A stretch of DNA of 56,800 nucleotides. It comes from a virus. A program made the position numbers and the translations under genes. Where the stretch lies: positions 1 to 56,800 of IMG/VR virus record IMGVR_UViG_3300035698_015077; one strand, 5' to 3'. Position 1 is the stretch's first letter. Each line of letters begins with the position of its first letter. Of the stretch, positions 14,351 to 23,229 are shown one piece after another. Under the pieces are notes generated by a model. The model searched no databases and had not been told where the DNA came from. It saw only the letters and a program-made list of their open reading frames with translations.

Positions 14351-15243
14351 CAGAATGGTATCCCGTTATGTGCTAAGTCAGTGTCGTGTATAGCTCTAAG
14401 ATCAAATAATTCTTTAATCCCCACACAACTCCACACTGCTACCGGTTCCCAGTCTCGCGTAAATTCATATATGTAGACCAGTTGTCCATTCTTACGCTCA
14501 TTTCTAAGCAGCGGCAACGATGCACCCACATAAACATTGTCAGCCGTTACAGCTAAACCACGCAAGTATAAATCTATGCCCACAATGTTCCGTAGATTAA
14601 TGGTTTTACGTGCTCCGGTTTTAAAGTTTATGTAAACCACTTCCCCTTCTTTAGATAGTAAGGTAATAACTGTATCCCGATCAATGCGGTAACAATTATG
14701 CGCTTGCGCCATAACATCTTTACTGGCTGAGAATTTCTTCAACACTCGGAATTCCTTACTTAGCTGCACTACCTCAGTTTCGCGCACATCGAAGTTGTGG
14801 TGCACCGTCCAATAAAATTCCCCATCGTAGTAAATCGAATTGATGTGGTTGCCTTTATCTCCGGTAGGATTATCCTGCGCATGATCTGCTGCGAAATTTG
14901 TATAGTTTATTTGATTATAACATTCTACAGGTGAGTTAGCCTTCCACTCCTTTGGCCATTCCACCAACTCGTTGTGTGAAGTGTTGACCGTAATAATGTT
15001 CCCCGTGCCTGGCACATACAGCGATTGGTGAGCAGTGCGCACGGAATTTAAAAACATCTCTGTATACTCAGTCAACTCACGGCTAAATCGTTGTACGGTA
15101 GTGTTGTTTTTCCCACCACGCCTGAATGCATACACCCATTCCTCGTCCCACGTCAGCCCGAAATGATCGTGCGGTGCCAATTGACGTATGCTGTGATTGT
15201 GGACTTTAAAGAATCCGTTTTTAGATGTTATTAATAATTTCAC
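14350..15243 (-). CDS. Beta-propeller-like protein
   Basis: 297 residues from a GTG at 15243, chosen because AGAGGA lies seven bases upstream and the overlap with neuB is then only 23 bases. Repeated blade-like strands carry Gly/Asn turns: GNIITVNTSHNELVEW, NHINSIYYDGEFYWTVHHN, GLAVTADNVYVGAS and LVYIYEFTRDWEPV. This resembles DUF4915-type or NHL-like propellers sometimes found beside glycosylation genes. It could bind a glycan or act as a scaffold; no catalytic site is visible. Confidence 0.55.
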   Translation of the reverse strand: MKLLITSKNGFFKVHNHSIRQLAPHDHFGLTWDEEWVYAFRRGGKNNTTVQRFSRELTEYTEMFLNSVRTAHQSLYVPGTGNIITVNTSHNELVEWPKEWKANSPVECYNQINYTNFAADHAQDNPTGDKGNHINSIYYDGEFYWTVHHNFDVRETEVVQLSKEFRVLKKFSASKDVMAQAHNCYRIDRDTVITLLSKEGEVVYINFKTGARKTINLRNIVGIDLYLRGLAVTADNVYVGASLPLLRNERKNGQLVYIYEFTRDWEPVAVWSCVGIKELFDLRAIHDTDLAHNGIPF

Positions 15244-16063
15244 AGATATCCTCTGGCAACAACACAGGAGCTTTCTCCACACCAGTGAGTTTACGCTGTG
15301 GATCGCCCAGCATTAACTCGGCTTTGCGTACAGTGTTAACCATAACAGCCAGCTCTTTAGGCTCCAGGCTAAAACTCTGATCCCCGCCGTGCAGCGTTTT
15401 GTCCAATGTTACATGGTGCTCAATCCACTCCACGCCCTCAAACACAGCGAGTATAGTGGAGATAATTCCGTTCTCATGGCTCGAATACCCAAGCCCCTCA
15501 CACGTTGCATGTTGCCGCAACGTCCACAAATAGCGCATGTTCATGGATTCCGGTGGAGCGGGGTATAGTGCCACGCAGTGATTAAGCACAAACGGGCATT
15601 TCCAAACACCAAAAACATTAGTCACAGCTTCTATTTTTTCAATCAATCCCGTTGAAATTAACGTCAGCTTTTTACGCCGCGCCACAGCAGCTAAAAATCC
15701 CATTGATGGTGCTAAGCCGCTTGCGACTTTGTGGAATGGAACGTCGTAATTATCAGCCAAGTACGCAAAGCTGCTAAGATCGAAGCACGACGCTGTCCAC
15801 TGTATTCCAATCTCACGGCAATACGAGTCAAACTCCGTAATCTGTTCCCAGGACAACTCCCGCCCAATCACCTTGTCACGTACCGTGGTGCCCCAAGGAG
15901 AATCACAACGAGCATCGAGCATGATCTTAGTGTAGCACTCGGCAATGTTACGCTTCTGGAGTTTAACGTAGTCGCATCCAGCTTCCTTTGCAATCGATGC
16001 CAACTGCTTTGCTTGCCCCAAGTCACCGTTGTGGTTTATACCGATCTCCGCAATTATGTTCAT
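15221..16063 (-). CDS. neuB: NeuB-like nonulosonate (sialic acid) synthase
   Basis: 280 residues. The start, AEIGINHNGDLGQAKQLASI, and the following GCDYVKLQKRN match the TIM-barrel N-terminus of NeuB/PseI/LegI synthases. These condense phosphoenolpyruvate with N-acetylmannosamine or a related hexose to make sialic, legionaminic or pseudaminic acid. IEHHVTLDKTLHGGDQSFSL carries the conserved metal and substrate region, and GYSSHENG the next loop. The usual C-terminal SAF (antifreeze-like) domain is missing: the family is normally about 330-360 residues. neuA lies directly upstream with a one-base gap. Confidence 0.88.
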   Translation of the reverse strand: MNIIAEIGINHNGDLGQAKQLASIAKEAGCDYVKLQKRNIAECYTKIMLDARCDSPWGTTVRDKVIGRELSWEQITEFDSYCREIGIQWTASCFDLSSFAYLADNYDVPFHKVASGLAPSMGFLAAVARRKKLTLISTGLIEKIEAVTNVFGVWKCPFVLNHCVALYPAPPESMNMRYLWTLRQHATCEGLGYSSHENGIISTILAVFEGVEWIEHHVTLDKTLHGGDQSFSLEPKELAVMVNTVRKAELMLGDPQRKLTGVEKAPVLLPEDICEIINNI

Positions 16064-16064
16064 A

Positions 16065-21535: not shown

Positions 21536-22113
21536 AGGCGGATAATCCTTCCTTCCTGCTCCCACTCATCAAAAAAAGAACGCTCCACAGCTTCTATGTG
21601 AATTAGCTTGCGCTTAGGATATATACGATTATCGAAATAGTGGAGTTTACCATGATTTACCAAATGATCAAAACCATGCACATACACCCACAGTGCTTTA
21701 ACTACCTGTAAGTAATATGCTACAATCACCAGGCCACTCGAAGCTGCAATTCCAGGTGTACCGCGCCTTTTAACTTCTTGCTGAATTGTATTATGGAATT
21801 CTTTTGTTACTTGACTACATACGCATTTATACTTTGAAGCTAAAGCTCGGAGTTTTGACAATGGTAATTTTTCAACTGGTTGATTTATTAAAATTTGAGG
21901 CCGCTGATTCCAATTCACATAGCGCAACCGCGCAACTTTACTAACTACTCTTGTTGCCCATACATCGGTTTTTATACCGGTATACTCCCGCTCTGCCGTG
22001 GAGAATTGATTAAGCCGCACCACAGTGCCAAACGTGTCAATTAACGCTCCCAACGGCTCATCAAGCACCGACGGGCCATTGCCTATAATGAGCACTTTGT
22101 TTGCGTTATACAA
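21508..22113 (-). CDS. GT29 (sialyltransferase)-like protein, paralogue 5
   Basis: About 201 residues from a TTG at 22113, or 195 from a GTG at 22095. A far upstream ATG would overlap the previous gene by 230 bases and add sequence unlike the paralogues. VLIIGNGPSVLDEPLGALID, FGTVVRLNQFS and YTGIKTDVWAT form the L block. ASSGLVIVAYYLQV with VYVHGFDHLV forms the S block, and LHYFDN the VS-like site. No ATG is placed where the family begins, so a non-ATG start is likely. Confidence 0.65.
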   Translation of the reverse strand: MYNANKVLIIGNGPSVLDEPLGALIDTFGTVVRLNQFSTAEREYTGIKTDVWATRVVSKVARLRYVNWNQRPQILINQPVEKLPLSKLRALASKYKCVCSQVTKEFHNTIQQEVKRRGTPGIAASSGLVIVAYYLQVVKALWVYVHGFDHLVNHGKLHYFDNRIYPKRKLIHIEAVERSFFDEWEQEGRIIRLCNLGKSGK

Positions 22114-22717
22114 GCCGCACCACCTGGCCAGCTTTGATCCAGCGATTAAAATAATACTCTTCAATCTCAGGGAAATGGCCATCAGTGGGCAGTGGTGAAT
22201 TGTCGAAGTAGTGGTGTTTATTGCCACGAAAATGATCAAATCCATAAATAGTAACTTGTGGGCAATGTAAGTAATCCAGATAATACCATACCAATGACAA
22301 CCCCGCAGAAGGACAGCTCCGACCAGGCTTAACATGCAGCCGATCTACCTTATTGCGTATCATAGTCTTAAACTCACGTGGATACTCATCGTATGAATAA
22401 CCGTTCTGCTGTGCAAAGTACAACAGCCGTATCACTGCTTTAATTTTACCGCGCTTGAGCTTGCCAAACGATTCTAATCGATCCAAATCTTCAATGTTTA
22501 ATCCCGTTTTACACAATATACTTGGGTGCTGCGACCAGTCTACAAAGTCACCATCGAACCACCTATCCGTGAACCATGTAGTGAGTTTTTTGCCTGTGTA
22601 CTTAGCTTGCTCGGTTGAAAACTGATTAATACGCACCACAACATCAAAAGCATCAACCTTATCTCCTATCGGAGCCTTCAGAATCGACGGACCATTACCC
22701 ACAATGATAACACTCAT
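22106..22717 (-). CDS. GT29 (sialyltransferase)-like protein, paralogue 6
   Basis: 203 residues. VIIVGNGPSILKAPIGDKVD, FDVVVRINQFS and YTGKKLTTWFTD form the L block. CPSAGLSLVWYYLDY with VTIYGFDHFR forms the S block, and HHYFDNSP the VS-like site. Overall it is closest to paralogue 5, which follows it. The first Met directly precedes the family's first strand, which supports the start. Confidence 0.7.
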   Translation of the reverse strand: MSVIIVGNGPSILKAPIGDKVDAFDVVVRINQFSTEQAKYTGKKLTTWFTDRWFDGDFVDWSQHPSILCKTGLNIEDLDRLESFGKLKRGKIKAVIRLLYFAQQNGYSYDEYPREFKTMIRNKVDRLHVKPGRSCPSAGLSLVWYYLDYLHCPQVTIYGFDHFRGNKHHYFDNSPLPTDGHFPEIEEYYFNRWIKAGQVVRLV

Positions 22718-23229
22718 TATATGTACTCAATCCACTTCTTCTCCACCGCCTCAGCCAGCCATGCCCGTTCTTTCTTCGCGTCGTGGCCAAGCACACTCTT
22801 CTTAAAGTAATGATTGGGGTACTTAAACGCATCAATACCAGCCACGTAGACTGGCTTTACATCCTTCAGCAGCCAGTAGCAAATCGCAATAATACCAGAA
22901 GATAGGTTCCCTTTGAGCTTATAAGCCCGTGTGATTTTACGCCGTCCCGTGCCCCATGTCTCCACAATGTTCTTAATGCCCTTTTCCCTAAGCACACGGT
23001 TAACTGCGTGAGACAGTGTAATTATCTTCGTGTGGCCAAACTCAGGTTCAAATTCCTGTGCCCCACCACCACGCAGCAACACGTAGTCGGTGCGTGTACC
23101 AACGTATTTCTCGTAACCAATTGTAGGCGCACAATTTGTACGTGTAATAATAGTAAAGTCAGTGTCGATTGTCTCGCCAAGTTCGCGCTCTAACAAAGAC
23201 GCACCGCCGCCAATAACTGCTATTTTCAT
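22717..23229 (-). CDS. GT29 (sialyltransferase)-like protein, paralogue 7
   Basis: 170 residues from the ATG at 23229, which overlaps the upstream stop as ATGA. IAVIGGGASLLERELGETID, TIITRTNCAP and YVGTRTDYVLLR form the L block, with Gly-Gly in place of Gly-Asn. NLSSGIIAICYWLLKD and VYVAGIDAFK form the S block, and NHYFKK the VS-like site. The altered first motif and the Ile in place of Phe suggest a divergent member. Confidence 0.6.
   Translation of the reverse strand: MKIAVIGGGASLLERELGETIDTDFTIITRTNCAPTIGYEKYVGTRTDYVLLRGGGAQEFEPEFGHTKIITLSHAVNRVLREKGIKNIVETWGTGRRKITRAYKLKGNLSSGIIAICYWLLKDVKPVYVAGIDAFKYPNHYFKKSVLGHDAKKERAWLAEAVEKKWIEYI

Follow-up and report, generated by a model that had tools for sequence, protein, structure and literature searches.

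A seven-copy array of GT29-family genes beside NeuA and NeuB in the genome of an uncultured bacterial virus

Why would a bacterial virus carry seven genes of the sialyltransferase family GT29 beside genes for making and activating a sialic-acid-type (nonulosonic) sugar, and are all seven what they seem to be? The DNA that raises this question is IMGVR_UViG_3300035698_015077, an IMG/VR virus record, linear and 56,800 bases long, from an uncultured bacterial virus; we analyzed it whole and refer to it as the window. A preliminary description, which rightly took the sequence to be viral, had placed a nonulosonate system at 15221-23229. The genes there are real, but the glycosylation island to which they belong is larger; it lies behind the capsid gene and extends over ~5.1-24.9 kb (Table 1). 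The GT29 array is well supported as a real, unusually large viral set on an older nonulosonate core. The island as a whole probably serves nonulosonate glycosylation, with NeuB and NeuA making a cytidine monophosphate (CMP) sugar that the GT29 paralogues transfer onto virion proteins or host glycans.

The family assignment of the array is clear. All seven open reading frames (ORFs; 17414-23229 on the minus strand, each named here by its lower coordinate) exceed the Pfam gathering score of 23 bits for PF00777, at 27.5-60.4 bits and with whole-protein E values of 2.4e-16 to 2.6e-6. A six-frame PF00777 search of the whole record returned the identical seven frames and no extra ones, although some starts lie inside the longest frames (17414, 21508, and probably 20356). 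When a joint profile of the seven was compared with PDB, the only matches above noise were sialyltransferases: porcine ST3Gal1 (6e-18), ST6GalNAc2 (3e-10), ST8SiaIII (1e-9), ST6Gal1 (7e-7), and the GT42 enzyme CstII (6e-7). In AlphaFold models of two of the seven paralogues, 22106 and 17414, GT29 structures rank first (Foldseek probability 1.00), and the PDB matches of both are all GT29 sialyltransferases down to E=2.8e-4, with GT42 CstII next for 22106; the two models were built from one 46-row alignment and are therefore not fully independent. The preliminary description had seen seven separate GT29-like proteins and proposed a PF00777 search and an AlphaFold/Foldseek comparison as checks; both checks bear it out, the second for the two paralogues modelled, and the seven ORFs are GT29-family proteins. 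A GT42 or DUF115 identity was considered and rejected on the scores of the profile and structure comparisons, in which GT29 matched far better than GT42. Most of the seven begin no more than ~15 residues from sialylmotif L, which leaves no space for a membrane anchor, and they should be soluble, cytoplasmic proteins.

Membership in a family does not by itself make seven working enzymes, and here the motifs are informative. We aligned the seven with ST3Gal1 and relatives, in a set of 46 sequences. Sialylmotifs L and S (GN, ID, R, and G-x-K; P/S-x-G and GF/ID) are present in all seven, with a VGG-type loop in place of VGN in 22717, and R29, G42, G139, and G159 are invariant across the whole set, the window's seven included. 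The VGN/IGN, G-x-K, P-x-x-G, and GFD blocks had thus been read correctly as motifs L and S in the preliminary description; the H-Y-[W/F] block that it called motif VS is actually sialylmotif III, and VS is an H-x4-E further on. The histidines of motifs III and VS, which we take from the ST3Gal1 structure to be the phosphate-contacting and base residues of GT29 enzymes, are each kept in five of the seven copies. The first is missing in 17414 and 19195 and the second in 17414 and 20356, so that four copies have both (22106, 18674, 21508, and 22717) and 17414 has neither. These losses caution against counting seven working transferases. It is conceivable, if somewhat improbable in our judgment, that only some copies are active and that the others are decaying or have a non-catalytic binding or regulatory role, and the long tree branches of 17414, 19195, and 22717 fit such a history. 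On the other hand, all seven frames are intact, differ little in length, and have starts and stops that overlap. The VS histidine is kept in 40 of the 46 aligned sequences, and its uncommon loss is also seen in the phage GT29s of loci L010 and L029, so loss need not mean decay.

The sugar-making genes are real as well. NeuB and NeuA, described earlier as lying side by side, are separated by one base and score far above their Pfam cut-offs. No match to the SAF domain of classical NeuB was found in the 280-aa (amino acid) NeuB of the window. A similarly short length is seen in most frames of its viral and bacterial relatives; the solved short sialic acid synthetase 6ncs (290 aa) aligns with it along its length, and in alignment to solved relatives the phosphoenolpyruvate and metal motifs of the family are kept. 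A small HAD phosphatase of the family to which the window's 24499-24858 gene belongs lies near NeuB in 47/79 viral NeuB loci versus 7/80 bacterial NeuB loci. Among viral GT29 loci it occurs in 2/78, exactly the two that have NeuB. The sets contrasted here were sampled differently and include some near-duplicate contigs, so a p-value for the contrast should not be read at face value. Being frequent beside viral NeuB and rare at GT29 loci, this phosphatase is likely a functional partner of phage NeuB, and it may act by removing a 9-phosphate.

GT29 genes adjoin these sugar genes in other viruses as well. In the DNA around each viral NeuB locus, GT29 was present in 9 of 79 cases, several of them arranged as GT29-NeuA-NeuB with overlapping ends. 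This order is found in four unrelated contigs (L232, L233, L237, and L265), and GT29 also adjoins NeuA and/or NeuB in L069, L088, LR756508.1, the Neomarinimicrobiota locus L170, and the cyanobacterial locus L182. Across 50,697 named phage records, a NeuB-like match was found in 3 and a GT29-like match in 2, with both adjacent in one. Such repeated adjacency speaks against the idea that the GT29 proteins use CMP-Kdo (3-deoxy-D-manno-octulosonic acid) or another host CMP-ketoacid while NeuA and NeuB serve only the DUF115 (Maf-like) transferases. We consider that idea quite unlikely, even though four relatives of the window's phage have NeuB and DUF115 genes and no GT29, the plant GT29 RCKT1 has been proposed as a CMP-Kdo transferase (PMC11288761), and Maf4 has been put forward as a transferase of legionaminic acid (PMC9298399). 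Two of the loci listed above have features of their own. At L069:9956-11377, a GT29 domain is fused to a DXD-type glycosyltransferase domain (PF04488), with NeuB directly after, and this is possibly a two-step transferase in one protein. At L170:4109-8825, in a Neomarinimicrobiota metagenome-assembled genome (MAG), GT29 and a short NeuB lie ~3 kb apart, a rare cellular pairing.

Seven GT29 copies are the most found in this analysis. Among 50 IMG/VR records chosen for GT29, 46 gave a match, with a maximum of three matches each, and 43 passed the family cut-off; the uncultured huge phage LR756508.1 (484 kb) has five copies and NeuB within 30 kb. The array is therefore as unusual for a phage as had been supposed. 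The accompanying statement that GT29 is mainly eukaryotic was incomplete, because bacterial GT29 was reported in 2018 (19/23 sequences alphaproteobacterial, with viruses and phages unmentioned in the text searched; PMC5811610) and because so many IMG/VR records pass the cut-off. Cellular GT29 was found in 8/398 Pseudomonadota and 4/292 cyanobacteria, one gene each. It was found in 0/50 of the genomes with the closest NeuB relatives, and a simple joint host origin of GT29 with NeuB is not supported; the exception, L170, lies outside that set. With the terms used, we found no paper on phage GT29 in the open-access literature, which is not proof of absence. A single-protein search of IMG/VR returned no close relatives of 22106, and a scan of genome contigs with four GT29 paralogues was likewise empty, because the copies are too diverged. 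No counterpart of the array was found in named phages by a DNA-level search.

How the array arose can be approached through the phage family to which the window belongs. Capsid and portal searches, followed by gene-by-gene comparison, defined six relatives: L010, L186, three IMG/VR records (IMGVR_UViG_3300017963_000018, IMGVR_UViG_3300027865_000681, and IMGVR_UViG_3300009370_000045; G788, G789, and G790), and an apparent provirus in a Latescibacterota chromosome (G052). The order of terminase, scaffold, capsid, and then DUF115 genes is kept in 6/6 relatives, and the portal is present in all but G790. NeuB occurs in five (L010, G788, G789, G790, and the provirus), and NeuA and the HAD phosphatase each in four (L010, G788, G789, and the provirus). 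No GT29 turned up in G788, G789, G790, or the part of the provirus that was compared, nor in L186, whose record ends soon after the first island genes. Within the family it is thus seen only in the window (seven copies) and in L010 (one copy), and since the core is shared by the relatives, the array seems to have expanded on a nonulosonate core that is older. The copies themselves are deeply divergent, with 21-38% identity to the first aligned copy. The mutual best or near-best matches among 22106, 21508, and 20356 fit duplication inside the lineage, whereas for 17414, 22717, and 18674 the similarity to other phages equals or exceeds that to their neighbors. The tree does not place the seven, and their monophyly is neither rejected (approximately unbiased test, pAU 0.117) nor supported. 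The five LR756508.1 copies form their own supported clade (99/92), which makes theirs an amplification separate from the window's.

The apparent provirus of this family (CP070677.1, ~1,948,000-2,019,000) has NeuA, NeuB, HAD, and DUF115 genes and no GT29. The MAG chromosome that contains it, of 4.3 Mb, is assigned to Candidatus Latescibacterota, and its left neighbors there are an AcrB/HlyD efflux pair and a Por-secretion-tail protein. The setting is a hint to the phylum that the family infects but gives no certainty about the host of the window itself, and mis-assembly can occur in a MAG. A core island in what appears to be a lysogen, next to ordinary bacterial genes, favors a strong rival account of the target, in which nonulosonate caps placed on the host envelope, in lysogens or late in infection, hide receptors or prevent superinfection. 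Lipopolysaccharide (LPS) and capsule genes of a marine virus, including a NeuA reported alongside LPS genes, have been interpreted in this way (PMC5332604). Against it, the island stays in the structural gene block across the family, and the scanned genes yielded no flippase, polymerase, or membrane anchor; we therefore rate an envelope target as rather unlikely, strong as it is among the rivals.

From the gene identities, fold, motifs, linkage, and family distribution, we infer a pathway of nonulosonate glycosylation with the virion as its favored target. NeuB would condense a host-supplied hexosamine, perhaps phosphorylated and with the HAD protein taking off the phosphate, with phosphoenolpyruvate, and NeuA would turn what is made into the activated CMP sugar. 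Together with DUF115-type and other glycosyltransferases and methyltransferases, the GT29 paralogues would then transfer and trim the sugar in the cytoplasm, on virion proteins or host glycans. The paralogues may have diverged for different acceptors or linkages, as the animal ST3, ST6, and ST8 enzymes did, and 17414, lacking both catalytic histidines, could have lost or changed its activity. Cytoplasmic GT29 enzymes and an island placed behind the capsid gene would both fit glycosylation of virion proteins ahead of assembly; Maf proteins, likewise cytoplasmic, are described as acting on flagellin prior to export (PMC4065374). A bolder version seems doubtful to us: that the array is an animal-like repertoire evolved independently in a phage lineage, with several soluble GT29 enzymes that differ in acceptor or linkage, its own CMP-nonulosonate supply, a catalytically dead paralogue, and a multi-linkage virion coat, and that the short NeuB and the HAD phosphatase run a phosphorylated, eukaryote-like route.

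Several observations weigh against the proposed pathway. In the surrounding DNA that was compared, 72/78 viral GT29 loci have neither NeuA nor NeuB. Given the plant proposal for CMP-Kdo, another CMP-ketoacid (PMC11288761), membership in the family does not reveal the donor. The window's NeuB reaches 176 bits against a cut-off of 400 for the NCBIfam equivalog NeuB_NnaB and 148 against 340 for PseI, and NeuA reaches no NCBIfam equivalog cut-off; since both fall far below the cut-offs for Neu, Pse, and Kdo enzymes, the sugar cannot be assigned to N-acetylneuraminic acid (Neu5Ac), legionaminic acid (Leg), pseudaminic acid (Pse), or ketodeoxynononic acid (KDN). The scanned ORFs revealed no epimerase for making the precursor. 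Finally, with a terminator-like hairpin between the capsid gene and the island, the island is not certain to be expressed together with the virion genes, although the total count of such sites in the window is no higher than in shuffles.

Compared with known systems, the window's proteins combine familiar motifs with an unfamiliar setting. They resemble the animal enzymes ST3Gal1, ST6GalNAc2, ST8SiaIII, and ST6Gal1 in sialylmotifs L and S, mostly in III and VS, and in predicted fold, but are 170-210 aa long (versus ~300), lack the membrane anchor and the motif-L cysteine, and number seven per viral genome. The bacterial GT29 proteins of Petit et al. 2018 (PMC5811610) are likewise prokaryotic, with motifs L, S, III, and VS and neither a membrane anchor nor the conserved disulfide cysteine; those are 23 cellular sequences, whereas the window has a viral array linked to NeuA and NeuB. 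In LR756508.1, too, the five GT29 genes share a region with a short NeuB and with a small HAD resembling the window's, but NeuA was not found in the 30 kb examined. Members of the phage family share the island layout and differ in GT29 number. Maf flagellin nonulosonate transferases and GT42 CstII use the CMP-nonulosonate chemistry proposed for the window, and the island's DUF115 proteins are weakly alike. Discussion of GT29 evolution has so far drawn on eukaryotic sequences and a small number of bacterial ones. In viral contigs, GT29 genes of deep divergence are numerous and in some cases linked to CMP-nonulosonate genes, and at least two phage lineages (the window and LR756508.1) have accumulated multiple copies. 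Phage GT29s belong in any account of sialyltransferase origin. They are also small, probably soluble candidates for sialylation enzymes, and if virions do carry nonulosonates, this phage would offer a testable example of particles coated in a sialic-acid-type sugar.

The remaining genes of the island are given in Table 1. On the minus-strand half of the window, the order is terminase, portal, a 279-aa protein at the scaffold position, the P22-type capsid, and then sugar-related genes down to ~5 kb, many neighbors sharing several bases at their ends, in the manner of a translated operon. A methyltransferase, a glycosyltransferase of a second type, and an unassigned ORF are interspersed among the GT29 array, with NeuA and NeuB directly downstream. 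The Maf-like character of 11031, 13637, and 23226 is a weak resemblance at the sequence level, all three missing the PF01973 gathering cut-off of 34.6 bits. Homologues of island genes 5065 and 8234 exist in related phages. The two halves of a fused phage gene at L013:5788-6756, adjoining NeuB and NeuA, match window ORFs 12299 and 13135.

Table 1. Structural genes, terminator-like site, and island genes of the window, in minus-strand order
Feature	Position	Strand	Evidence and remarks
Terminase	28255-29718	-	
Portal	26762-28252	-	
Major capsid protein, P22-type coat	24924-25859	-	PF11651 E=1e-19; phrog_283 major head protein E=1e-51; anchors island
Terminator-like hairpin	24877-24913	-	15-bp stem and T-rich tail; separates capsid gene from island; consensus match only
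Small HAD phosphatase (EcbF/BcbF-, PNKP-like)	24499-24858	-	Island's first gene; all matches below curated cut-offs
DUF115/MptE-like and CST-like domain fused to methyltransferase	23226-24533	-	phrog_4603 alpha-2,3-sialyltransferase E=1e-8; PF01973 21.4 bits (below cut-off); PF13489 above cut-off
GT29 paralogue 1	22717-23229	-	PF00777 39.3 bits; III-His and VS-His kept; VGG-type loop
GT29 paralogue 2	22106-22717	-	PF00777 42.4 bits; both His kept; model pLDDT (predicted local distance difference test) 79.8; top PDB matches ST6GalNAc2, ST3Gal1
GT29 paralogue 3	21508-22113	-	PF00777 27.5 bits; both His kept; start TTG 22113 or GTG 22095
SAM (S-adenosylmethionine)-dependent methyltransferase	20975-21565	-	PF08241, PF13649 above cut-off
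GT29 paralogue 4	20356-20991	-	PF00777 30.5 bits; III-His kept, Asn at VS-His position; start probably ATG 20991
Glycosyltransferase, non-GT29 family	19752-20363	-	phrog_1962 glycosyltransferase E=1e-23
GT29 paralogue 5	19195-19764	-	PF00777 40.0 bits; VS-His kept, III-His missing
GT29 paralogue 6	18674-19198	-	PF00777 55.2 bits; both His kept
ORF, possibly sulfotransferase-like by eye	17967-18683	-	No Pfam, NCBIfam, or PHROG match
GT29 paralogue 7, candidate divergent or inactive copy	17414-17980	-	PF00777 60.4 bits; III-His and VS-His missing; start ATG 17980; model pLDDT 80.6; top PDB match ST3Gal1
ORF between GT29 array and NeuA	16838-17254	-	No Pfam match
NeuA-type CMP-nonulosonate cytidylyltransferase	16065-16739	-	PF02348 E=1e-16, 61.7 bits (cut-off 22.6); best PDB match PpNeuA 9t4z E=1e-16
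NeuB-type nonulosonate synthase, 280 aa, no SAF domain	15221-16063	-	PF03102 E=5e-52, 177 bits (cut-off 22.1); PDB: SpsE, 6ncs, PseI
Protein with weak DUF4915 match	14350-15282	-	Below cut-off
DUF115/MptE-like	13637-14350	-	PF01973 15.7 bits (below cut-off); homologues in related phages
Two ORFs (12299-13150, 13135-13659)	12299-13659	-	Counterpart in locus L013 is a single fused gene next to NeuB
DUF115/MptE-like	11031-11846	-	PF01973 27.3 bits (below cut-off); phrog_4603 E=1e-4
Island remainder	5065-11043	-	Glycosyltransferase-like 5065; capsule-synthesis-like 7354; methyltransferases 8234, 10426; no family 6417, 8833, 9617

Outside the island, no tRNAs or RNA families were found anywhere in the window. 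Close to where gene direction switches, a DUF4417/nuclease-like protein lies beside a weak ParB_N match at 33562-34769, both of them minus-strand. On the plus strand, at 36964-38455, a PTPS/QueD-like gene (PF01242 E=5e-31), a radical SAM gene (37302-37931), and a GTP cyclohydrolase I gene (E=2e-66) stand in a row, a preQ0-type set that suggests 7-deazaguanine DNA modification of the kind found in phages.

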